Source: Desulfovibrio sp.
GTDB taxonomy: Bacteria > Desulfobacterota > Desulfovibrionia > Desulfovibrionales > Desulfovibrionaceae
Length of the DNA: 56,248 nucleotides
Assembly: GCA_024699605.1 (NCBI GenBank)
Contig: JAILPJ010000050.1
Coordinates: 1-56,248, forward strand
Direction of reading: 5' to 3'
Position 1 is the first letter of the stretch; every line of letters starts with the position of its first letter. Position numbers and translations under genes: made by a program. A model generated the notes under the pieces. The model ran no database searches, was not told the origin of the DNA, and saw nothing but the letters and a program-made list of their open reading frames with translations. This document shows positions 5,220 through 46,649 of the stretch, in pieces.

Positions 5220-6587
5220 ATGATTCGTCACTATTGTGGTCTGATGGGTATCTATGATCATGAAGATGCTGCTAAACTTACCTATTTTGGTTTGTATGCT
5301 CAGCAACATCGTGGGCAAGAAAGTGCTGGTATCGTCACAATCGACGAAAATGGACTTCATGAACACAGAAAATTAGGCCTAGTTCATGATGTTTTTACCG
5401 AATCCGATTTTCTCCATCTCACTGGCAAAACGGCGATAGGTCATGTTAGGTATTCGACCACAGGGATTAGCAGTACGCCCAATGTACCTCCTTTTATAGC
5501 TCGTTTTCATGATCACAATATTGTCATTGCCCACAATGGCAATCTTGTGAATACAAGGCAATTGCGTAGAGAGCTTGAGGAAAGAGGTTCTCTTTTTACG
5601 TCTGATAATGATACGGAAGTATTTCTCCATCTGCTTATCCGCGAATTGAGAACAAAGACATTAACCCAGGCCGTTAAAGCAGTCTGTGAGAAAGTTCTGG
5701 GAGCCTATTCGCTTTTGATCTTGATGGATAAGACGATGATTGCCTTACGCGATCCTCACGGTATTCGTCCCCTGGCTTTGGGTAGAATAGACAAAAAGCC
5801 TGTATTTGCCTCTGAAACCTGCGCTTTTGATTTGCTTGAAGCCGATTACGAGCGAACCCTAGAACCCGGAGAAATGTATATTGTCGATGAAGATGGTGAA
5901 CGTTCTGAATTTTTGAAAGAAAAGCTACCCAGACCACGTCAATGTATTTTTGAACTGATTTATTTTGCGCGACCTGATTCCTACGTTTTTAACGAGCAGG
6001 TTTATGTCTGCCGCAAGCAAATGGGTTGGCAGTTAGCGCATGAATCTCCCTCTGATGTTGATTTTGTCTTGCCATTTCCTGATTCTGGTGTCTATTCAGC
6101 GGTAGGTTTTGCACAGTATTCGGAGCTGCCTTATGAGCATGCCATGATCCGTAATCATTACGTCGGCCGTAGCTTTATTCAGCCTTCTCAGAATATGCGC
6201 AATTTTAGTGCGCGAGTGAAAATTAATCCTGTCAAGCCGATGATTCATGGAAAGAAAATATGCATTGTTGATGATTCAATTGTCCGTGGCACTACCATGA
6301 TTACGCGTGTCAAAAAGCTGCGTGAACTTGGAGCTAAGGAAGTTCATATCCGAATTTCCTGTCCTCCCATCAAATTTCCCTGTCATTACGGCATTGACTT
6401 TGCTGACCAGCGAGAACTCATTGCAGCCAGACACAGTATTTCAGAAATTCAAAAAATCCTCGGTGTTGATAGCTTGCATTATCTCAGTGTCGATGGTCTT
6501 TTGCGTTCGGTGATGCATTCAGAAAATTACTGTCTGGCCTGTTTTACAGGTGACTATCCTGTTCCCTGTGAAGGCTGTATTCGCTAA
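5220..6587 (+). CDS. purF: Amidophosphoribosyltransferase (glutamine PRPP amidotransferase)
   Basis: First committed enzyme of purine synthesis: PRPP + glutamine to phosphoribosylamine. The N-terminal nucleophile Cys is in YCGLMGIYDHED, preceded by a short propeptide, and QQHRGQESAGI follows. The PRPP loop is IVDDSIVRGTT. Cysteines in CPPIKFPCHYG and YCLACFTG fit the Fe-S ligands of the Bacillus-type, propeptide-cleaved, 4Fe-4S-containing PurF. Two starts are possible: GTG 5208 and ATG 5220. ATG 5220 is preferred because the purine-rich AAGAGTGAG lies at proper distance from it, whereas GTG 5208 has no clear Shine-Dalgarno. It lies 19 bp after gyrA and is probably in the same transcript. Confidence 0.96.
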   Translation: MIRHYCGLMGIYDHEDAAKLTYFGLYAQQHRGQESAGIVTIDENGLHEHRKLGLVHDVFTESDFLHLTGKTAIGHVRYSTTGISSTPNVPPFIARFHDHNIVIAHNGNLVNTRQLRRELEERGSLFTSDNDTEVFLHLLIRELRTKTLTQAVKAVCEKVLGAYSLLILMDKTMIALRDPHGIRPLALGRIDKKPVFASETCAFDLLEADYERTLEPGEMYIVDEDGERSEFLKEKLPRPRQCIFELIYFARPDSYVFNEQVYVCRKQMGWQLAHESPSDVDFVLPFPDSGVYSAVGFAQYSELPYEHAMIRNHYVGRSFIQPSQNMRNFSARVKINPVKPMIHGKKICIVDDSIVRGTTMITRVKKLRELGAKEVHIRISCPPIKFPCHYGIDFADQRELIAARHSISEIQKILGVDSLHYLSVDGLLRSVMHSENYCLACFTGDYPVPCEGCIR

Positions 6588-37299: not shown

Positions 37300-37359
37300 G
37301 GTGCCGGGAGCCAAGATGTTGTTTTTCCGCGTTACTGCCTATTGCTCCAAGGAATAGCT

Positions 37360-38364
37360 ATGAGTCTTGATTTTGTCTCGACCTTTAAACGTTGGCTTGC
37401 GCAGCAGAATAAAACAAGCAGCTACTGTCTTTTGATTTCTGCGGATCCTGACGCTTTGGCTTCGGCAATGGCTTTGCGCAAACTCTTGCGTCAGAAGGTG
37501 CAGCGAGTTGACATTCGCTATATCAATGAAATTTCGCGGCCTGATAATTTGGCCATGATCCGCTATTTGCGGATTCCAGCAGCTCCATGGCGCTGCGAAG
37601 ATGCCGACAATTACAGCCATTTTGGTATGCTCGATTCTCAACCTACTCACCACGCCGCTTTTGCGCCCTATTCCTATAGCCTCGTTGTGGATCACCATCC
37701 AAGTGACGAAATTTCCCAGTATTTGCGCTCAGATTGTTACTGTCTCGTGCGCAAGGGGGTCGGAGCCACTTCCACAATTCTTACCCGTTTGATCAAGGGC
37801 ACAGGTCAGAGACCAGGTCCGCTTTTGGCCACGGCCTTGCTCTATGGCATTCGCACAGATACCGCTTCCTTTGAGCGCTCAGGAGGAGAAGAGGATCTCA
37901 AGGCCTATCATTGGCTCTTCAAATACGCCAATGCCGTCATTTTGCGGCGTATCTGCCGCAGTGAATATTTGAGAGACTGGTTGCCGCTTTTTGCCAGAGC
38001 CTTTCGTTCTCTTAAGGACTGCCCAGGCAATGGAGCGCATGCCTCGTTAAACGATGTGAAAAATGCCGATCTTCTGGTTTCCATTGCGGATTTTTTCACC
38101 AAAGTGCATGGCTTACGTTGGATTGCCGTGAGCGGAATGGTAGAGAAAAAAATCGTTGTGATTTTCAGGGGTGACGGAGCACGCGATGTGGGGCTGATGG
38201 CCAAACAGTGCTTTGGGGCTCTGGGACAGGGCGGCGGGCACCGCAATCTGGCACGAGCGGAGTTTTTGCTGAACGCTGTGCCGAACAACATCAAACCAGC
38301 GGAATTTGTCCATCAGAAGCTTGCTGCCTATCATGTGCTGCGTAATGTTCAGACCGAAGCCTAA
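37360..38364 (+). CDS. DHH/DHHA1 phosphoesterase (NrnA/pAp-phosphatase-like)
   Basis: 334 aa from ATG 37360, which follows AAGGAA; the TTG at 37342 is not needed. The DHH domain has ISADPDALASA (metal site, about residues 24-34), a conserved Asp in the HFGMLDSQ strand and VVDHHPSDE (about 109-117). The DHHA1 domain ends with GQGGGHRNLARA. This is the build of NrnA nano-RNases, which also dephosphorylate pAp, and differs from RecJ by its small size. It lies 60 bp after the sulfotransferase gene on the same strand. Confidence 0.87.
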   Translation: MSLDFVSTFKRWLAQQNKTSSYCLLISADPDALASAMALRKLLRQKVQRVDIRYINEISRPDNLAMIRYLRIPAAPWRCEDADNYSHFGMLDSQPTHHAAFAPYSYSLVVDHHPSDEISQYLRSDCYCLVRKGVGATSTILTRLIKGTGQRPGPLLATALLYGIRTDTASFERSGGEEDLKAYHWLFKYANAVILRRICRSEYLRDWLPLFARAFRSLKDCPGNGAHASLNDVKNADLLVSIADFFTKVHGLRWIAVSGMVEKKIVVIFRGDGARDVGLMAKQCFGALGQGGGHRNLARAEFLLNAVPNNIKPAEFVHQKLAAYHVLRNVQTEA

Positions 38365-38436
38365 CCTCCTCCCCGCTGTAACGATCACGGCCTGTGGGCA
38401 ATGTGGGAGATTTTGCACAAATTTTAGGCTTTGCTC

Positions 38437-38465
38437 TTGACGGGAGACGATCTTTGAACTAAAAA
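38437..38465 (+). promoter_or_regulatory. Promoter of the aromatic operon leader
   Basis: TTGACG (38437-38442), a 17-bp spacer and TAAAAA (38460-38465). The -35 is good and the -10 weak. The expected transcription start is near 38472, about 40 nt before the leader ORF. Confidence 0.5.
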
Positions 38466-38512
38466 GCAAAAAAACATTTTTTTTCACGCTAAGATCAGGT
38501 AGACGGAAAATC

Positions 38513-38620
38513 ATGACTTTTTCTTTGGCCACTTTTGCACAAGGGAATACCCGCAGCAATACTCAGTTTTTTTGGGGGTATTATTTTTTTGCATCCTGTG
38601 GCCGAGGACAGCTCTCCTGA
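38513..38620 (+). CDS. Leader peptide of the aromatic amino-acid operon (FFWGYYFF)
   Basis: A 35-codon ORF, ATG 38513 to TGA 38618-38620. Codons 19-26 (38567-38590) encode FFWGYYFF: four Phe, two Tyr and one Trp within eight codons, in a protein otherwise made of ordinary residues. Such clusters are the hallmark of attenuator leader peptides, where a ribosome starved of the relevant charged tRNA stalls. GACGGA lies upstream as a modest ribosome site. It sits between a promoter and an intrinsic terminator directly ahead of five shikimate/aromatic genes. It is too short to be picked up by usual gene finders. Confidence 0.88.
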   Translation: MTFSLATFAQGNTRSNTQFFWGYYFFASCGRGQLS

Positions 38621-38682
38621 CGCGTGAACGCAAAGAGTTTTGTCTGGGGCCACAGGTTAACGAAACTGTGGCCCCTTTTTTT
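38527..38682 (+). terminator. Transcription attenuator with competing RNA pairings
   Basis: The terminator stem GGGGCCACAG (38646-38655) / CTGTGGCCCC (38666-38675) is followed by seven T (38676-38682). The antiterminator is CCTGTGGCC (38595-38603), perfectly complementary to GGCCACAGG (38648-38656), i.e. the 5' arm of the terminator. The pre-emptor GGCCAC (38527-38532) is complementary to GTGGCC (38598-38603). So segments 1:2, 2:3 and 3:4 form the classical four-segment attenuator. Segment 2 begins 5 nt after the last Phe codon of the FFWGYYFF run. Confidence 0.88.
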
Positions 38683-38711
38683 ATCCATACTTAAACACAA
38701 AGAGGTGTCTT

Positions 38712-39509
38712 ATGTACCTGGGAAAACGCATTCGTCTTGAACGCATTTTGAAACGCAACAACGGCCGGACGATTATTGTTCCTATGGACCACGGCGTGAG
38801 TATGGGGCGTGTGGAAGGTTTGATCGATATGCGTGAAACCGTCAGTGATCTTGCTGAAGGCGGAGCTGATGCTGTGCTCATGCATAAGGGCCTCGTGCGC
38901 TGTGGTTACCGCAGCCGGGGCAAGGACGTGGGGTTGATTATCCATCTTTCGGCGTCCACGGATTTATCTCCCCTGCCCAACAGCAAAACTCTGGTCTGCA
39001 CAGTGGAAGAGGCCATTCGCCATGGTGCCGATGCCGTTTCCGTGCACGTGAATATTGGCGATGACAACGAAGCTTCCATGCTGGCAGCTATGGGAAAGGT
39101 TGCCGGCGCTTGTGACGATTGGGGTATGCCCTTGATTGCCATGGTTTATGCTCGCGGACCCAAGATTCCCAATAGCTATGATCCCAAGCTCATTGCTCAT
39201 TGTGCCCGTGTGGGTGTGGAACTGGGTGCTGACATTGTCAAGGTGAGCTATTCCGGAGATGTGGACAGCTTCTCGCGTGTTGTCGATGGCTGTTGTGTGC
39301 CTGTGGTGATCGCTGGCGGTCAGCGCATGGACTCCACACGTGACGTGCTGACGATGGTCTATGATTCACTGCAGGCTGGTGGTGCTGGCATTTCTATAGG
39401 ACGCAATGTTTTTCAACACCCACGTCGTGCCAAACTGGTTGTTGCGTTAAAAGCCATAGTGCACGAAAACGCTGGTGTGGAAGAGGCACTGGCCATAGTT
39501 GGAGAATAG
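38712..39509 (+). CDS. 2-amino-3,7-dideoxy-D-threo-hept-6-ulosonate (ADH) synthase
   Basis: 265 aa, class I aldolase-type TIM barrel of the archaeal (MJ0400-like) family. It condenses a deoxy-ketohexose phosphate with aspartate semialdehyde, replacing DAHP synthase as entry to the shikimate pathway. Visible: [10 protein letters not shown] (Asp25 region), [15 protein letters not shown], the Schiff-base Lys in [11 protein letters not shown] (about 176) and [15 protein letters not shown] precedes the ATG. It is the first structural gene after the attenuator. This non-canonical route is established for methanogens and found in Desulfovibrio-type bacteria. Confidence 0.93.
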
Positions 39510-39511
39510 CC

Positions 39512-40495
39512 ATGGCTAAGGTTTTTTTCCTTTGTGAGCCCTACGACAAGAGTGCCGTTACTCTGGCCTTGGAAAGCGGGGTGGACGGTTTGATCGTTGG
39601 GCGCGAGCATCTGGCCAGTTGCCAGAGCCTTGCCCGCTGCCAAGTGCAGGCCCTTGAGGACGTTGAATTTGTGGCTCTTAGCGGCAAGAGTGATGAAAAC
39701 GAGGCCTTGTCGCGTCTGAACAAGGGACATACCGTGATCTTGCAGCGAGGCTGGGAAGTCATTCCTGTGGAAAACCTTTTGGCGCAGAGTGAAGCCGTCT
39801 ATGTGGAAGTCGCCAATGTGCGTGAGGCCAAGCTTGCAAGCGGTATTCTTGAACGCGGTGTTTTTGGGCTGGTTGTCGGCCTGGCAGCCTGCGGCGAGCT
39901 CAAAAGCATTGTGAAAGAGTGTAAACTCGCCCAAAAAGACGAAAAGCTTGTGGAAGCAAAAATCACACGTATCGAGCAGGTGGGATTAGGACACAGGGTT
40001 TGCGTAGATACGCTTTCGCTCTTGCACAGAGGGCAAGGCATGCTTGTGGGCAATAGCAGTGCCTTTACCTTTCTCGTACACGCCGAGACCGAGCACAACG
40101 AGTATGTGGCGGCACGGCCATTTCGTGTCAATGCCGGAGGGGTCCACGCCTATGTTCGTCTGCCCGGCGATAAAACCTGTTACCTTGGGGAGCTTCAGGC
40201 TGGCAAAGAAGTCCTGATTGTTCAAAACGATGGCAGCACAGCTCTGGCAACGGTCGGCCGTGTAAAAATTGAAGTGCGGCCAATGTTGCTCATTGAGGCT
40301 GAGGTGACAACTGAACAGGGGACTGTGCGGGGTACGGTTTTCTTACAGAATGCCGAGACCATCCGGCTGACAGCTCCTGATGGGCGCCCTCTGAGTGTGG
40401 TAGGACTGGCTTCGGGAGATACGGTGCTTTGTCGCATTGATGTTGCTGGTCGGCATTTTGGCATGCGTGTCAGCGAGGAAATTGAGGAGAATTAG
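39512..40495 (+). CDS. 3-dehydroquinate synthase II (archaeal AroB' type)
   Basis: 327 aa. It oxidatively deaminates and cyclises ADH to 3-dehydroquinate, with NAD. It is unrelated to the normal AroB and matches the MJ1249 family: SGVDGLIVG, the conserved KITRIEQVGLGHRVCVDT segment, GNSSAFTFLVHAETEHNEYVAARPFRVNAGGVHAY (short pieces GNSSAFTFLVHAETE and RPFRVNAGGVHAY) and YLGELQAG. It begins 2 bp after the ADH synthase stop, so the pair is translationally coupled and works in sequence. Confidence 0.93.
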   Translation: MAKVFFLCEPYDKSAVTLALESGVDGLIVGREHLASCQSLARCQVQALEDVEFVALSGKSDENEALSRLNKGHTVILQRGWEVIPVENLLAQSEAVYVEVANVREAKLASGILERGVFGLVVGLAACGELKSIVKECKLAQKDEKLVEAKITRIEQVGLGHRVCVDTLSLLHRGQGMLVGNSSAFTFLVHAETEHNEYVAARPFRVNAGGVHAYVRLPGDKTCYLGELQAGKEVLIVQNDGSTALATVGRVKIEVRPMLLIEAEVTTEQGTVRGTVFLQNAETIRLTAPDGRPLSVVGLASGDTVLCRIDVAGRHFGMRVSEEIEEN

Positions 40496-40498
40496 TCC

Positions 40499-41677
40499 AT
40501 GGCTTCAATGCATACCGGAGCAGGCGAGATCAATGAAAGACTGCAAGGCATTCGTCGTGAGATTGATGCTCTCGATTCACAGCTGCTCGATCTTTTAAAC
40601 CGGCGTGCGGGCCTCAGCCGTGAAGTGGGTCGCATCAAGGCCGATGCCGCGTCAGTGATCTTCAAGCCCCTGCGCGAGCATGAACTGCTCAATGACCTTG
40701 CGCGACGTAATCCTGGTCTCCTGCCTGAAGAGCATCTACGCTCCATCTGGCGAGAAATCCTTTCCTCTTCTCGGGCCTTGCAGCGTCCGCAGGATGTGGC
40801 CTATCTTGGCCCCGAAGGGACTTTTTCCTTTTTTGCCGGTCTTGAATATCTTGGCCATTCAGCGACATATCATCCCTGTCGTGATATTGTTGAAATCTTT
40901 GAAATGGTCAATGACGGCCGTTGTGAACTGGGAGTAGTCCCCCTTGAGAATTCCCTGCAGGGCACAGTAGGTGTCAGTTTTGATCTTTTTTTGAAATATC
41001 CGGTTTTTATTCAGGCTGAACTCTTTTCACGCATCTCGCACTGTTTTTTAAGCAGCGCCCAAGATCTCTCCTCCATTACGACCATCTACTCTCACCCCCA
41101 ACCCTTGGCGCAGTGCAGTACGTGGTTGCGAACACACTTACCCAGAGCCGTGCTTGTGCCAGTGGAATCAACGGCCAGTGCAGCACGTAGAGCCGCCGAA
41201 CTGCCCGATACAGCAGCCATCGGTCACCGTGGCCTTTCGGTAATGCTCGGTCTCAATGTTTTGGCTAGCCGCATTGAAGATGAGCCGGGCAACTGGACGC
41301 GCTTTGTGATCATTGCCTCGGAAAAATTTCGGCAAAGCCGCAAACAGGGGATTGCGCAAAGCAAGAACGTAGCCGACAAAACCTCGGTGCTTTTTACCTT
41401 GCAGGACCAGCCTGGCGCTCTTTCAGCCGTTTTGAACTGCCTTGCGCTGAATAAGATCAATATGCGTAAGCTTGAAAGCCGACCGCTGAAGACTGAAACC
41501 TGGAAATATGTGTTTTTTGCCGACGTGGAATGCGATCTTGAATCAGAAACCTATGCTCCTCTTGTGGAGGAGCTTTCTACGCACTGCAGCAGTTTTCGTA
41601 TTCTCGGCAGCTATGTCACAGGACCTCAGCTTGATCGGACTATGCCCGAAAGTGATGAGGAGGACAGGGAGAACTAA
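40499..41677 (+). CDS. pheA: Bifunctional chorismate mutase / prephenate dehydratase
   Basis: 392 aa. The AroQ-type chorismate mutase domain covers about residues 12-95 (IRREIDALDSQLLDLLNRR, seen as EIDALDSQLLDLL; IKADAASVIFKP). The dehydratase domain begins VAYLGPEGTFS at about 100, with PLENSLQGTVG and the catalytic TRF of NWTRFVII near 264. The C-terminal ACT domain (about 298-378, LQDQPGALSAVL and KLESRP) should bind Phe for feedback inhibition. GAGGAGAA precedes ATG 40499. It makes phenylpyruvate, the Phe precursor, and lies in the attenuated operon. Confidence 0.96.
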   Translation: MASMHTGAGEINERLQGIRREIDALDSQLLDLLNRRAGLSREVGRIKADAASVIFKPLREHELLNDLARRNPGLLPEEHLRSIWREILSSSRALQRPQDVAYLGPEGTFSFFAGLEYLGHSATYHPCRDIVEIFEMVNDGRCELGVVPLENSLQGTVGVSFDLFLKYPVFIQAELFSRISHCFLSSAQDLSSITTIYSHPQPLAQCSTWLRTHLPRAVLVPVESTASAARRAAELPDTAAIGHRGLSVMLGLNVLASRIEDEPGNWTRFVIIASEKFRQSRKQGIAQSKNVADKTSVLFTLQDQPGALSAVLNCLALNKINMRKLESRPLKTETWKYVFFADVECDLESETYAPLVEELSTHCSSFRILGSYVTGPQLDRTMPESDEEDREN

Positions 41678-41757: not shown

Positions 41758-41808
41758 TGATAAGCAAAATAATCGTAGAACTTTCTGTCTTTTTTGGGGA
41801 GGGAGAGC

Positions 41809-43224
41809 ATGGAGCCTTTGCAAAATCAGCAGAATGTGGTCAGCATCGATGTGCCAGGATCCAAATCACTTTCGCATCGCTATCTGATTGGTGCAGCACT
41901 GGCCAGTGGTCAATCAACGCTCAGGCATGTGCAGAACAGTTCGGATATTGATGTGACTCGCGCTCTTCTGCAACAGATCGGTGCCGAGATTGAGCCTCTG
42001 TCAGGTGAAGATCTTAGCGTGCGCGGAGTAGGGGGGCAGGTGCGTGGCGGAAGCGGCAGCCCCTTGGATTGTAATGTAGGGGAAAGTGGCACAAGCTGTC
42101 GTCTGCTCAGTGCGGTCTTTGCAGCCGGGGATGGACTTTTTCGCATCTTTGGTCAGGGGCGTATGCACGAACGGCCGGTTGAAGATTTGTGCCATGCGCT
42201 GACGAGATTGGGTGCCGGTGTAATCTATACCGGCAAGACGGGTTGTCCGCCCTTTCTCTTGCAAGCGCGCGGACTCAATCCTGATCTGGTCAAGGGTGAG
42301 CTGAGTATCGGCATGGATGCGTCAAGTCAGTATTTCTCAGGTCTCCTACTGGCTGCGCCCATGTGTCCGACTTCTTTGGTTTTAGAGCTTGGTGGCAATA
42401 AGGCTGTTTCTTGGCCCTATGTCGGTTTGACCTTGCAGTGTCTGACGGATTTTGGTCTGTCTTTCACTGTGGCTACACGTCCAAATAAAACTGCTGAATG
42501 GAAAACGCTGGAGAGCGGCGCCTGGCGTGAAGTGGCCTTGGCGGTACCTGGTTGTCTGCGAATCACTGTGCAGCCTGGTGCCTATCAGAGCGGAGTTTAC
42601 GACATTGAAGGGGACTGGTCTCAGGCCTCCTATTTCCTTGCCGCTGGTGCACTGGGCAGCCGACCGGTCTGTGTCCGGGGTTTGCGTGAAGATTCACTGC
42701 AGGGTGACCGCATTATCCTCGATATCCTTTGCAAGATGGGCGCTCAGCTGACCCTTGGCGATAATGCCGTGACCGTCTTTCCTTCCGCATTGCATGGTGT
42801 GGATCTCGACATGTCGAGCTGTCCTGACCTTGTACAGACGGTGGCTGTCCTGGCCGCTTTTGCCCATGGTTCAACCAGAATTCGCAATGTGGCGCATTTG
42901 CGTTTTAAGGAAAGTGACCGCATTGCCGCTCCAGTTGAAGAGCTGGGAAAAGTCGGTGTTGTGGCGGATACGCTCTCCGACGGGCTGTTAATCAGTGGCA
43001 AGGGTGGCAATGTGCATCATAAGCGTGGCGAAAGTGTCCTGCCGAGTCTTCCAGAAGGCGCCATGCTTTCCTCTCACAATGACCATCGCATGGCCATGGC
43101 TCTGGCTTTGCTTGATCTTGTCAATCCTGATCTGCATGTTGAAAAGCGACTTGACGATGCGACAGTGGTAAAGAAATCATTTCCTGACTTTTGGACGAAA
43201 TGGCAATGCGTGCTTGCGAAGTAG
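41809..43224 (+). CDS. aroA: 3-phosphoshikimate 1-carboxyvinyltransferase (EPSP synthase)
   Basis: 471 aa from ATG 41809, preceded by GGGGAGGGAG. It joins PEP and shikimate-3-phosphate. Motifs: PGSKSLSHR (PEP/S3P-binding Lys), GESGTSCRLL (where many enzymes read GNAGTxxR), HERPVEDL, the DASSQYFSGLLLA segment, VRFKESDR-like LRFKESDRIAAPVEEL and the C-terminal SHNDHRMAMA. The Glu-Ser replacement in the GNAGT loop is of the kind relevant to glyphosate contact, so sensitivity class cannot be assumed. The stop overlaps the tyrA start. Confidence 0.95.
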   Translation: MEPLQNQQNVVSIDVPGSKSLSHRYLIGAALASGQSTLRHVQNSSDIDVTRALLQQIGAEIEPLSGEDLSVRGVGGQVRGGSGSPLDCNVGESGTSCRLLSAVFAAGDGLFRIFGQGRMHERPVEDLCHALTRLGAGVIYTGKTGCPPFLLQARGLNPDLVKGELSIGMDASSQYFSGLLLAAPMCPTSLVLELGGNKAVSWPYVGLTLQCLTDFGLSFTVATRPNKTAEWKTLESGAWREVALAVPGCLRITVQPGAYQSGVYDIEGDWSQASYFLAAGALGSRPVCVRGLREDSLQGDRIILDILCKMGAQLTLGDNAVTVFPSALHGVDLDMSSCPDLVQTVAVLAAFAHGSTRIRNVAHLRFKESDRIAAPVEELGKVGVVADTLSDGLLISGKGGNVHHKRGESVLPSLPEGAMLSSHNDHRMAMALALLDLVNPDLHVEKRLDDATVVKKSFPDFWTKWQCVLAK

Positions 43225-44006
43225 CGGGGAAAACAATCCTGATTATTGGTGAAAACGGACGGATGGGAGGAATGTTGCTGCGGCGCGCGCAGAGTTTTGG
43301 TTGGAACATTTTGGGAATTGATCAGCCGCTGGACAGCCGTGAACTCGAGACAAAAGCTCAGGCAGTTGCAATGGTCATTTTTTGCGTTCCAGCCTCTGTA
43401 TTTGAGCAGGTGCTCGAGCGTGTTTGTCCCTACCTTCCTAAGACCTGTATCGTCTCGGACATCACCTCGGTCAAGGAGCTGCCCATGGAGGCCATGGAGC
43501 GCGTCTGGCCAGGCTCATATGTGGGCACACATCCCCTATTTGGTCCAAGTCCGGATTTTTCAAGTTCTCTGCCTGTGGCCATCACTGCGGGAAGACTTCT
43601 CAACGCTCAGGATCTCGTTTTCTGCGAAACGTTCTGGACCAGTCTTGGTTTTGACGTTTTTCGTTGTTCGGCTCAGGAGCACGATGTGGCCATGGCCAAG
43701 ATTCAGAATCTGAATTTTATCAGCAATCTGGCCTATTTTGCCTTGTTGGCTGACCAAAAAGAGCTTTTGCGCTATATCACGCCATCCTTTCGGCGCAGAC
43801 TGGCTTCAGCAAAGAAAATGCTCACAGAAGACGCTGCCATGTTTTCTGCACTGTTTGAGGCTAATCGCAACAGTCACGAAGTTGTCCGCAACTATAGCCG
43901 AATGCTCAATTTAGCCGCTTCTGGGGATATTGGCCTTCTGAGCGAACGGGCCAAATACTGGTGGCTGGAAGAAGGAGACGATGCTGGCAAAGGAGGCAGT
44001 GACTGA
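43200..44006 (+). CDS. tyrA: Prephenate dehydrogenase family protein
   Basis: 268 aa from ATG 43200. The N-terminal Rossmann motif is IIGENGRMGGMLL (GxGxxG, about residues 15-27). IFCVPASVFEQVLE, SDITSVKELPM and the GTHPLFGPS substrate loop follow, then a helical C-terminal domain with a conserved His in RNSHEVV. It oxidises prephenate (or arogenate) towards Tyr. It overlaps aroA by 25 bp; ATG 43206 and TTG 43191 are other possible starts. It ends the operon: no trp genes follow, unlike the arrangement known in some relatives. Confidence 0.9.
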   Translation: MAMRACEVAGKTILIIGENGRMGGMLLRRAQSFGWNILGIDQPLDSRELETKAQAVAMVIFCVPASVFEQVLERVCPYLPKTCIVSDITSVKELPMEAMERVWPGSYVGTHPLFGPSPDFSSSLPVAITAGRLLNAQDLVFCETFWTSLGFDVFRCSAQEHDVAMAKIQNLNFISNLAYFALLADQKELLRYITPSFRRRLASAKKMLTEDAAMFSALFEANRNSHEVVRNYSRMLNLAASGDIGLLSERAKYWWLEEGDDAGKGGSD

Positions 44007-44064: not shown

Positions 44065-45153
44065 CTATTCTGAAGACGTATTACGGTATTCGTTTTCTGG
44101 CGCAAGTTGTCTGCGGCGTCGCGCTTTGAGAGTGGTATGTATTGTTTCCCAGTCAGGCAGGCTAAAGCCGCTTTGTCGATTTGCTTCAACCACAAAGCTG
44201 CGGGAAGAGCTCTGGCAGCTGACATTCATGCTGGCCCGAGAGCTGTTGGCGAGGGCTTTGATGGCGTAGGAAAGGGTGGTTTGTCCGGCAAGTTTGAGTA
44301 TTTCGTCTGGCCACTGGCTTCCGTAGCGAGCCAGAGCTACGGGAGAGGGAATTCCTGGAAAAGTGATTAGCGCATCCTCTTCGCTGCGCAATGCTCGTAA
44401 TGCGTCGTTATCACGGCTGTTGCGGCCCATGCTCAGCCAGTAGAAGGTCTCTCCCACATTCAGCCAGAATTGACGGCCGGTATTGGCCAGGTCAAAATCT
44501 TTCGCCTTGGGATCATTGCTGTGTTCCAGAACCATCCAGTAGCGTCTGGCGTTCTCGCGTTCTGTGAGCTTACAGCCGCCACTGGGCGAAGGGATCTTGG
44601 CAAGGTGAAAACGATTCTGGGCAAGAGCGAGCTGTTCCTGGCGTCCGCGACCTTGAATCGCTAACAGCTTTTCTCGGTCAACGAGACCCGCTGCTTCCAT
44701 GGGCGTGACATCAAGGTGTTGAGCAGACAGCGGACGGAGTAGGCAGTCTTTGACGTCGGCTTCACGCATGATGGTGTTAAGTACATCACGGCGCTGTGAC
44801 ATGGGGCGCTGACCGATGACTTCGCCGGTAGCGAGTATTTTTGCGCCATGCGCAAGCATGATTTTTTTGGCTTCCTGCAGCAGGAGGATTTTACAGTCCA
44901 CGCAGGGATTGAGAGTTTTGCCGAAACCATGAGCTGGCTGGCGTAAAAGCTCAACAAAAGCATCTCCAAGATCGTGCTGTGCAATGCGTAGACCGTAAGC
45001 GTTTTGCCAGTAGGGTATCTGTCTGGCATCGCCGAAAAAGGGTGAAGTCATGTGCAGGCAGAGGACGTTCAATCCCTGATCAGCCAGCAGCCGTGCGGCG
45101 AGGATACTGTCGAGTCCCCCTGAGAAGAGGGCAATTGCATCAATTCTGTCCAT
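44065..45153 (-). CDS. PP-loop ATPase, tRNA-thiolation type (MnmA/ThiI-like)
   Basis: 362 aa from ATG 45153, with GGGAG upstream. The N-type ATP-pyrophosphatase motif FSGGLDSILAARLL opens the protein (about residues 9-22). NPCVDCKILLLQEA (about 105) gives a Cys pair as in MnmA-like enzymes, and RPMSQRRDVL follows. The C-terminal part (about 215-290, FWLNVGETFYWLSMGRNSRDN) resembles an NFACT-R type RNA-binding domain. Function inferred: adenylation of tRNA for 2- or 4-thiolation; the exact position is unknown. It is on its own transcript, converging on tyrA. Confidence 0.75.
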   Translation of the reverse strand: MDRIDAIALFSGGLDSILAARLLADQGLNVLCLHMTSPFFGDARQIPYWQNAYGLRIAQHDLGDAFVELLRQPAHGFGKTLNPCVDCKILLLQEAKKIMLAHGAKILATGEVIGQRPMSQRRDVLNTIMREADVKDCLLRPLSAQHLDVTPMEAAGLVDREKLLAIQGRGRQEQLALAQNRFHLAKIPSPSGGCKLTERENARRYWMVLEHSNDPKAKDFDLANTGRQFWLNVGETFYWLSMGRNSRDNDALRALRSEEDALITFPGIPSPVALARYGSQWPDEILKLAGQTTLSYAIKALANSSRASMNVSCQSSSRSFVVEANRQSGFSLPDWETIHTTLKARRRRQLAPENEYRNTSSE

Positions 45154-45208
45154 GGTGGCTCCCACAGATTGCCATTAGCACGTGACAGCGTGAGCCGCAA
45201 GGAAGTGA

Positions 45209-45422: not shown

Positions 45423-46649
45423 TTATTGAATGCCCATTTTCTTCAAGACCAAAGGAACTACCGTAGAATCCCACAGTCTGCTTTCAAGCTTTGCCTTTAA
45501 AGACAGGACGAATTGGGCAGTCTTTGTATTCCAACGCATCCCAGGAAGCTTAAGTCGGTTCTGCATAACGACTTTATTGCCGCTATCAATAGCCCCACTG
45601 CCAACAAAAAAGCCTTTTTCCTTGTATAAAGGATAATTAATATTATTCTTGTTATTTACTATATAATTATATAAATTTACACATCCTGTATTTGGTTTCT
45701 CTCCTTTATATTTTTCAATTTTTGTCAAAACTTTTTCCCATTCTCCATCTTCAAGCATTTTGCAAATTTCTTCAGACCAATCTTTATATAGCGATTTATT
45801 ATTAAATATATATTTTGAGAAACTATATACGTTTTCTTTTAAATGAAATAGGTCTAAAATTTGCTGCGCATCTGGGAAAAGTTCTTCTTTTATATTTCTT
45901 ATCCAGGTGCCCCCATCGCTAAGAATCACAGTTTGCTTGTATTTTCCATATCCATTACGGATTGCTAATGCTAAAAAATGATATTTAAATTTTTCAACAG
46001 AACCGATGTAGCTAATATATTCTCTTTTTACTATTCTATGACATAATATTCCTTTTTTATTTTTCCAGTATCGTATATTTTTATTTGTAAAGGCTATCGC
46101 AAGTTTATTTTCGCGCCATGTTGAACCATTATCATCCTTTATACGCGTGTTTAGAGCAGCACCATCTGTCATGAGATAAAGAATTCCATCATCAGAAAAA
46201 TTTCCATCGATAGACTGTTTATCAATAATTTTTCTAACAGACTCTGCGGCTTCACAATCTGCATCAAAAATTATTTTGCCAATATAGTTAACAATATTTC
46301 TTATGGTATCATCACTTATTTCAACGTTATATACTCTTTTAAAATAGTCTTCTGTGTCTTGATATGATGAAGATTTTATCGCCCAGTATGCAATCTCAAG
46401 CATCATATCAGAAGAAATTTTAAAGGGAAGGCGATCAATTTTTAGCGCTATATCTAATGGTATTACCGCTTTTAAGCTTTTGGTATTCTCAAGAAGTTCT
46501 CGGCTTTCTTTGTCAACAGGTATTAGAATATAACGACTATATGTAATATGACCATGTTTTGTTAGAATTTCCCTCGAGCTTTTTCTATGAGTTTTTAACC
46601 TGATCCCCCCTTGTCTGAATACTCTTTTTTTGACTGTATCAACGCCTTC
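45423..46649 (-). CDS. ISLre2-type transposase, frame B (main part)
   Basis: The open frame starts after a stop at 46650-46652, and no ATG occurs before 46406. Yet codons between 46604 and 46407 read like the N-terminal part of ISLre2 transposases (REILTKHGHITYSRYILIP). So the ATG at 46406 is not the real start; the product must come from frame A by a -1 frameshift. A central region with YLMTDGAALNTR, SDGGTWIRN and DLFHLKENV, and the late VGSGAIDSGNK, carry the acidic residues typical of this DDE family (UPF0236). The fusion of frames A and B would be 480 aa, a normal transposase length. Confidence 0.85.
   Translation of the reverse strand, partial: EGVDTVKKRVFRQGGIRLKTHRKSSREILTKHGHITYSRYILIPVDKESRELLENTKSLKAVIPLDIALKIDRLPFKISSDMMLEIAYWAIKSSSYQDTEDYFKRVYNVEISDDTIRNIVNYIGKIIFDADCEAAESVRKIIDKQSIDGNFSDDGILYLMTDGAALNTRIKDDNGSTWRENKLAIAFTNKNIRYWKNKKGILCHRIVKREYISYIGSVEKFKYHFLALAIRNGYGKYKQTVILSDGGTWIRNIKEELFPDAQQILDLFHLKENVYSFSKYIFNNKSLYKDWSEEICKMLEDGEWEKVLTKIEKYKGEKPNTGCVNLYNYIVNNKNNINYPLYKEKGFFVGSGAIDSGNKVVMQNRLKLPGMRWNTKTAQFVLSLKAKLESRLWDSTVVPLVLKKMGIQ

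Follow-up and report, generated by a model that had tools for sequence, protein, structure and literature searches.

The window, by which we mean the whole 56,248-nt stretch of DNA analysed here, contains an operon for aromatic amino acid biosynthesis preceded by a leader open reading frame (ORF) encoding the 35-residue peptide MTFSLATFAQGNTRSNTQFFWGYYFFASCGRGQLS and by an intrinsic terminator (Table 1). In the operon's pheA gene, the chorismate mutase domain models score under their own cut-offs. The initial annotation had described the operon as feeding all three aromatic amino acids; its five genes are present, but the trp genes lie elsewhere, with trpE and trpA of this genome located on another contig, outside the aromatic operon. 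This separate trp operon has its own leader, MKTNCTFSFFAFAWWRRKLRRGDVHP (L113:1339-1419), with tandem Trp codons, and in the region L113:1339-1480 that leader is followed by a terminator-like hairpin. The aromatic operon is flanked upstream by a gene for a DHH-family protein (37342-38364, + strand; Pfam DHH) and downstream by one for a ThiI-like protein (44065-45165, - strand), both scoring under the NCBIfam cut-offs, and by an ORF that looks transposase-like by eye (45423-46406, - strand). A plasmid search with ADH synthase yielded nothing further.

Table 1. Leader elements and genes of the aromatic operon in the window
Feature	Position	Strand	Basis
Possible promoter, TTGACG - 17 nt - TAAAAA	38437-38465	+	by eye
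Leader ORF, 35 codons (ATG to TGA)	38513-38620	+	translation
Segment 1, pairs with 38598-38608	38522-38532	+	fold
Regulatory codons Phe-Phe-Trp-Gly-Tyr-Tyr-Phe-Phe (FFWGYYFF)	38567-38590	+	sequence and translation
Segment 2, core and second helix GGACAG (38606-38611)	38595-38611	+	fold, duplex energies
Segment 3, terminator left arm	38646-38656	+	fold, relatives' terminators, covariation
Segment 4, terminator right arm	38666-38675	+	fold, relatives' terminators
T7 of intrinsic terminator	38676-38682	+	sequence
2-Amino-3,7-dideoxy-D-threo-hept-6-ulosonate (ADH) synthase	38712-39509	+	TIGR01949, 392.7 bits, cut-off 299.45
3-Dehydroquinate (DHQ) synthase II	39512-40495	+	NF002628, 522.9 bits, cut-off 508
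Chorismate mutase / prephenate dehydratase (pheA)	40499-41677	+	NF008865, 241.9 bits, cut-off 219
EPSP synthase (aroA)	41794-43224	+	TIGR01356, 344.7 bits, cut-off 287.25
Prephenate dehydrogenase-like (tyrA), start uncertain	43191-44006	+	best NF008400, E 7e-34, under cut-off

The initial annotation had also proposed a 35-codon leader with the run FFWGYYFF, four segments with a T7 tract, and the pairings 1:2, 2:3 and 3:4; every element lies where it had been placed, and folding of the leader region recovers all three stems. The segment cores are GGCCAC (38527-38532) for segment 1, CCTGTGGCC (38595-38603) for segment 2, GGCCACAGG (38648-38656) for segment 3 and CTGTGGCC (38666-38673) for segment 4, the pairing arm of the latter reaching 38675. 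A promoter consensus scan found none, the candidate in Table 1 being a by-eye reading.

In the fold of the entire leader, 1:2 and 3:4 form together (-65.7 kcal/mol, z -5.3). Folded alone, the stretches with 1:2 (z -5.8) and with the terminator (z -5.2) are each matched by none of 200 shuffles, and the stretch with 2:3 (z -3.7) by one of 200. The 1:2 helix spans 11 bp and has a p of 0.02 in the duplex-energy test. A second 2:3 helix joins GGACAG to the bases immediately 5' of segment 3 in the fold, of which the duplex-energy test shows GGAC only. The 2:3 fold of 38591-38660 (-32.4 kcal/mol) is roughly equal in stability to the fold of 38591-38682 with 3:4 (-32.7) and can arise while segment 4 is still untranscribed, as fits a co-transcriptional switch. 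A standard terminator scan found no terminator here; it allows loops of up to 8, and the actual loop is 10.

Aromatic genes elsewhere are controlled by riboswitches, T-boxes or protein-dependent attenuators, and such an element could in principle replace ribosome-dependent control here. An Rfam scan of positions 38300-38800 returned no match near its threshold, neither Trp_leader nor Phe_leader is among the seven matches listed there at E<=10, and a scan of the corresponding regions of nine relatives (91,772 bases) gave nothing at the gathering score; the T-box covariance model was unmatched at 38300-38800 and in the nine regions. We reject the Rfam families as the identity of this leader for want of any covariance-model match in these sequences. 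Given also that the ORF and the 2:3 and 3:4 pairings account for the conserved parts of the leader, we give hardly any credence to this type of control.

Conservation of the leader was examined upstream of ADH synthase, which is matched in 270 of 288 genomes of the family. We compared 175 distinct upstream regions, chiefly from Desulfovibrionaceae, 152 of which adjoin DHQ synthase II; regions with less than 150 nt of upstream sequence were left out, among them that of the trp-lacking genome G009 (L178). At least five aromatic codons in ten occur at 144 of the 152 loci. The other eight comprise seven second copies of a tandem ADH synthase pair and one locus, L170; of the 144 runs, that at L189 proved on inspection to be a false window and was dropped from the tree and the Trp counts, leaving 143 leaders. 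Thus two of the 152 loci, L170 and L189, have no visible leader upstream of ADH synthase. Phe and Tyr codons are present in all 143 scored runs; Trp codons accompany them in 114 and are missing in 29, counting as a leader without Trp one (L006) whose Trp codon falls immediately beyond the window that was scored. For L061 and L091 the scoring picked a window other than the real run, with no effect on their class. The leader of Candidatus Desulfovibrio kirbyi, a termite-gut ectosymbiont (L061), reads YWRFFAYF 330 nt upstream of position 6304, with the terminator kept. The proposal of one leader carrying all three aromatics consequently holds for the window and for 114 of 143 homologues, and the remaining 29 lack Trp in the scored window.

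A plain 5' terminator, or the terminator of the upstream gene, next to a chance ORF and without regulation would also place a hairpin at this point: the DHH-family ORF stops at 38364, and the hairpin that follows is strong for an intrinsic terminator. A stricter statistic, which asks for at least six aromatic residues among 12 within 480 nt upstream, is reached by 139 of the 152 actual sequences; it is reached 9 times in 152 by reverse complements and 46 times in 1520 after dinucleotide shuffling. On the contigs of the named loci, 69 of 436 upstream regions reach six aromatic codons in ten; 59 of these 69 lie at ADH synthase starts, leaving only 10 among about 377 other regions. These counts and this rarity lead us to reject a chance ORF. 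Considering too that the run, the competing stem and their spacing are kept at 143 of 152 loci and in other families, an unregulated terminator is scarcely credible.

The pairings are likewise kept among relatives. A terminator was found in 141 of the 143 leaders tested (one of 144 loci was skipped for an N), the two failures being L080, which has a longer-loop terminator by eye, and the leaderless L189. An initial stem test that accepted only uninterrupted Watson-Crick runs detected 2:3 in 38 and 1:2 in 21 of 141 loci; because the 2:3 stem of most relatives contains a G-U pair, this test was weak on 2:3 and duplex energies were used instead. By that measure, 127 of 141 loci have a 2:3 duplex stronger than in shuffles at p<=0.05, and 96 still do at p<=0.01. 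Pairing each segment 2 with its own segment 3 gives a total of -3437 kcal/mol, a level that 2000 random re-pairings (-3068, sd 27) never reached, relatedness being ignored in this comparison. At one 2:3 position (n=139) all four Watson-Crick pair types are seen: T-A in 93 leaders, C-G in 27, A-T in 4 and G-C in 2, with T-G in 10 and no pair in 3. In 101 of 140 leaders the segment-3 base of this covarying pair is unpaired in the terminator stem, and a base that covaries in 2:3 yet is mismatched in the terminator indicates that pairing with segment 2, and not just with segment 4, constrains segment 3. The competing antiterminator, which shares an arm with the terminator, is thus conserved with compensatory changes. 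Pairing 1:2 is significant (p<=0.05) in only 35 of 140 loci, with a mean of -17.8 versus -15.0 kcal/mol in shuffles, so that segment 1 is, on the sequences compared, the least conserved element of the attenuator. The initial annotation had looked to homologous leaders for a run and competing stems; run, terminator and 2:3 turn out to be kept through the family and the order, with compensatory changes, and on this conservation and covariation we propose an attenuation mechanism with high confidence.

The aromatic codons stop short of segment 2. Counted back from segment 2, codons 2-8 encode Phe, Trp or Tyr in 65-93% of relatives' leaders, and codons inside segment 2 do so in 0-1%. The stop codon ends 24-34 nt past the start of segment 2 in 127 of 141 leaders, so that a ribosome at the stop codon would sit over the 3' part of that segment; overlaps with segment 2 were estimated here from the usual size of the ribosome footprint. 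In the window, stalling at the final pair of Phe codons (38585-38590) would probably place the ribosome over some of segment 2, and stalling at the earlier Phe, Trp and Tyr codons would leave that segment free.

A translatable, aromatic-rich leader ahead of an aromatic operon might also encode an arrest peptide of the TnaC kind, in which the nascent chain senses the free amino acid and stalls the ribosome. Against this, the order and spacing of Phe, Trp and Tyr vary freely, and RNA pairing accounts for what is conserved at the C-terminal end: two leaders (L079 and L120) translate the same segment 2 in another frame, as QPVV instead of ACG, which argues that the leader tail is conserved as RNA and not as peptide. 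Biosynthetic genes, moreover, should answer to scarcity and not to excess. Lacking a fixed peptide, and with segment 2 in the other frame in those two leaders, the arrest-peptide reading was rejected, and we regard it as highly improbable.

The leader is very likely a ribosome-mediated transcription attenuator of a chorismate/Phe/Tyr operon whose regulatory codons are Phe, Trp and Tyr. With all three tRNAs charged, the ribosome would pass FFWGYYFF, reach the stop codon (38618-38620) and cover segment 2 in its 3' part; the terminator would then form from segments 3 and 4, ending transcription at about 38682. A shortage of Phe-, Trp- or Tyr-tRNA would make the ribosome stall in the run and disrupt segment 1, allowing 2:3 to pair before segment 4 is made, so that no terminator would form and the operon would be transcribed. 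If the leader is not translated, 1:2 would form and the terminator would be favoured. We infer translation of the leader, termination at 38682 and a response to each amino acid from these features.

Whether the Trp codons follow the trp genes bears on how many amino acids the leader answers to. We sought trpA in the 49 genomes of the named loci and in the 288 family genomes, and trpB and trpD in 36 genomes, chiefly those without a trpA match. Genomes with trpD in which trpA was not found were counted as trp-present, as were all rows unflagged as trp-lacking, including at least five (L086, L087, L088, L102 and L104) classed without a direct look-up. One leader with Trp (L094), from the 75% complete genome G024 where trpA and trpD were not found, was left out, its contig ending before DHQ synthase.

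Among the 143 relatives, 45 have trp genes within the same operon, and all 45 of their leaders contain Trp. The codon is also present in 47 of 63 leaders with no trp gene within at least 6.7 kb downstream, in 20 of 25 whose trp linkage is unknown, and in 2 of 10 from genomes where trpA and trpD were not found, those two assemblies being 74% and 89% complete; 21 leaders are without Trp despite trp genes counted as present. On a tree of the 143 rows built from ADH synthase plus DHQ synthase, the Trp codon changes 16 times, with no change on the trp-linked branches that account for 35% of the tree's length (p about 0.0009, from one parsimony reconstruction). The presence of trp genes changed 6 times on this tree and trp linkage 3 times, so that independent-pairs tests are unable to reach 0.05: for presence, agreement is seen in 3 of 4 informative pairs when every row is used and in 3 of 3 once the two incomplete genomes are removed, and for linkage only 2-3 pairs are available. 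From genomes with a separate trp operon, 41 regions were examined and 30 include the trpE start; 25 of these 30 have a WW or WWW leader, and the other five have Trp codons that are single, spaced or doubtful.

Neither trpA nor trpD was found in 11 of the genomes searched (G067, G068, G087, G117, G183, G271-G275 and G281). In nine of the 11, trpB scores over its cut-off, a possible sign of indole salvage, and the leaderless loci L170 and L189 belong to this genome set. Of 35 genomes of the order, 4 gave no trpD match; the leaders of two (G356, G361) are without Trp, and those of the other two (G346, G359), which are assemblies of about 490 and 410 contigs, contain it.

Eleven ADH synthases on long contigs without an adjoining DHQ synthase II were treated as a paralogue set. 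Seven of them (L067, L185, L192, L193, L206, L207 and L208) have runs of at least six Phe, or Phe and Tyr, and no Trp; an eighth (L074) has five, and the remaining three (L069, L200 and L201) have no run worth naming. A Phe-rich run of the form FFFFFSFYF lies about 150-170 nt upstream of ADH synthase at L192 (gene at 801-1592), L185, L206, L207 and L208. The L192 enzyme matches TIGR01949 at 401.9 bits, and its 12.4-kb stretch shows no match to the other aro or trp queries. The seven and L074 have by eye a terminator-like repeat and a T run, absent from some minimum-energy folds. In other genomes of the genus with the FFFFFSFYF paralogue, the main-operon leaders contain Trp. The stand-alone ADH synthase seems to be an isozyme whose separate leader is narrower in specificity. 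Tandem ADH synthase pairs occur at L106, L121, L124, L133, L194, L195 and L199; at L106 and L133 an aromatic leader precedes the first copy, and the other five loci end too short upstream.

The same attenuator could be effectively monovalent, with a single amino acid, most likely Phe, limiting in practice and the Tyr and Trp codons acting as near-neutral passengers. The AroR leader of Corynebacterium glutamicum aroF (Neshat et al. 2014, as described in the available part of PMC11802643) contains Phe-Tyr-Phe and answers to Phe only, Tyr limitation being ineffective, which shows that a codon in a leader is no guarantee of sensitivity to the amino acid it encodes. Phe is moreover found in every scored run, and the 16 changes of Trp on the tree would suit a passenger codon. 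Tyr, though, is just as constant, no loss of Trp is seen among the 45 trp-linked operons, and the Phe-rich stand-alone leaders without Trp stand against main-operon leaders of the same genus that have it. We judge a monovalent attenuator unlikely, if worth serious attention, and separate sensing of each of Phe, Tyr and Trp to be likely.

Outside the family, 28 distinct loci were kept of 40 from other families of the order (Desulfovibrionales). Run and terminator are present in 26 of the 28, one terminator (L282) being weak at -4.2 kcal/mol, and 25 also have a significant 2:3; the two loci without a strong run (L269 and L271) both come from genomes where trpD was not found. The phylum, judging by its named members, is Desulfobacterota; DHQ synthase II is present in 92 of 296 genomes sampled from it, 79 of the 92 lying outside the order, from which we took 37 and obtained 36 testable loci. 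Run and terminator occur together at 23 of these 36, with a significant 2:3 in 11 and none in 12; at the other 13 of 36 no aromatic run was found. The leader tails outside the order differ (GLPTVS, CASTFK), and stems there are therefore not plainly the same sequence. From these comparisons, what we describe appears to be a real order-wide attenuator with a classic mechanism and an unusual codon set.

We lean towards a broader reading, in which a multi-amino-acid aromatic attenuator accompanies ADH-synthase/DHQ-synthase-II operons in much of the phylum, with a codon set that changes to suit the wiring of the operon: Phe, Tyr and Trp in an aro/phe/tyr/trp superoperon, Trp on a separate WWW leader once the trp genes leave, Trp lost with the pathway, and a Phe-rich run without Trp on the duplicated, stand-alone ADH synthase.

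The four-segment logic of this leader is that of E. coli trpL, where Trp is the regulatory codon, as it is in the window genome's own Trp leader. The trpL stop codon falls between segments 1 and 2; the present ORF instead contains the segment 2 core, with 14 nt separating that core from the stop codon. The ilvGMEDA and thr leaders likewise combine, in one leader, codons for several amino acids made by shared enzymes, with a branched-chain or Thr/Ile set as opposed to the aromatic set described here. A Phe leader and the same terminator/antiterminator logic are found in E. coli pheL-pheA and pheST, and pheA is also in the present operon, but those systems concern a single amino acid and a single terminal branch or synthetase (PMC11802643, in the part available). 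AroR is the closest described case, with an aromatic-codon leader before a first-shikimate-step operon and stalling that raises transcription; it differs, in the text available, in that no Trp is named, the response is to Phe only, the enzyme is an ordinary DAHP synthase and the phylum is another.

Among the matches listed in the literature searched, outside of which lie most subscription papers and all preprints, there is no leader with all three aromatics, and the Phe, Trp and Tyr codon set was not found in the available parts of that literature, including PMC545781, PMC3766115, PMC2965389 and PMC5343134; none of the matches listed has, by title or opening of the abstract, a Desulfovibrio aromatic leader as its subject. 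In the sections available, PMC3766115 reports attenuator motifs for His, Leu, Thr and Trp over a genome set that includes 10 Desulfovibrionales, names Ile/Val and Phe attenuators as known but then outside Rfam, and suggests a possible gamma-proteobacterial origin for amino acid attenuators. PMC5343134, to the extent available, mentions trp and pheA attenuation in gammaproteobacteria and a common shikimate pathway usually controlled through isozymes and repressors (TyrR, TrpR). Relative to this literature, as far as it was accessible, the mechanism is already known and the codon set, with Phe, Tyr and Trp in one leader, appears to be new.

Aromatic attenuators in the accessible literature answer to one amino acid; in these sulfate reducers, one RNA appears to integrate three end products for a whole pathway, whereas the available text of PMC3766115 points to gamma-proteobacteria as a possible source of amino acid attenuators. 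The leader of this rumen sulfate reducer looks like an old and widely kept switch for aromatic shortage. Operon splits, pathway losses and gene duplication provide natural experiments on the evolution of regulatory codons, with predictions testable in each genome, and, if the proposed correspondence is true, leader codons could reveal which amino acids an operon answers to.
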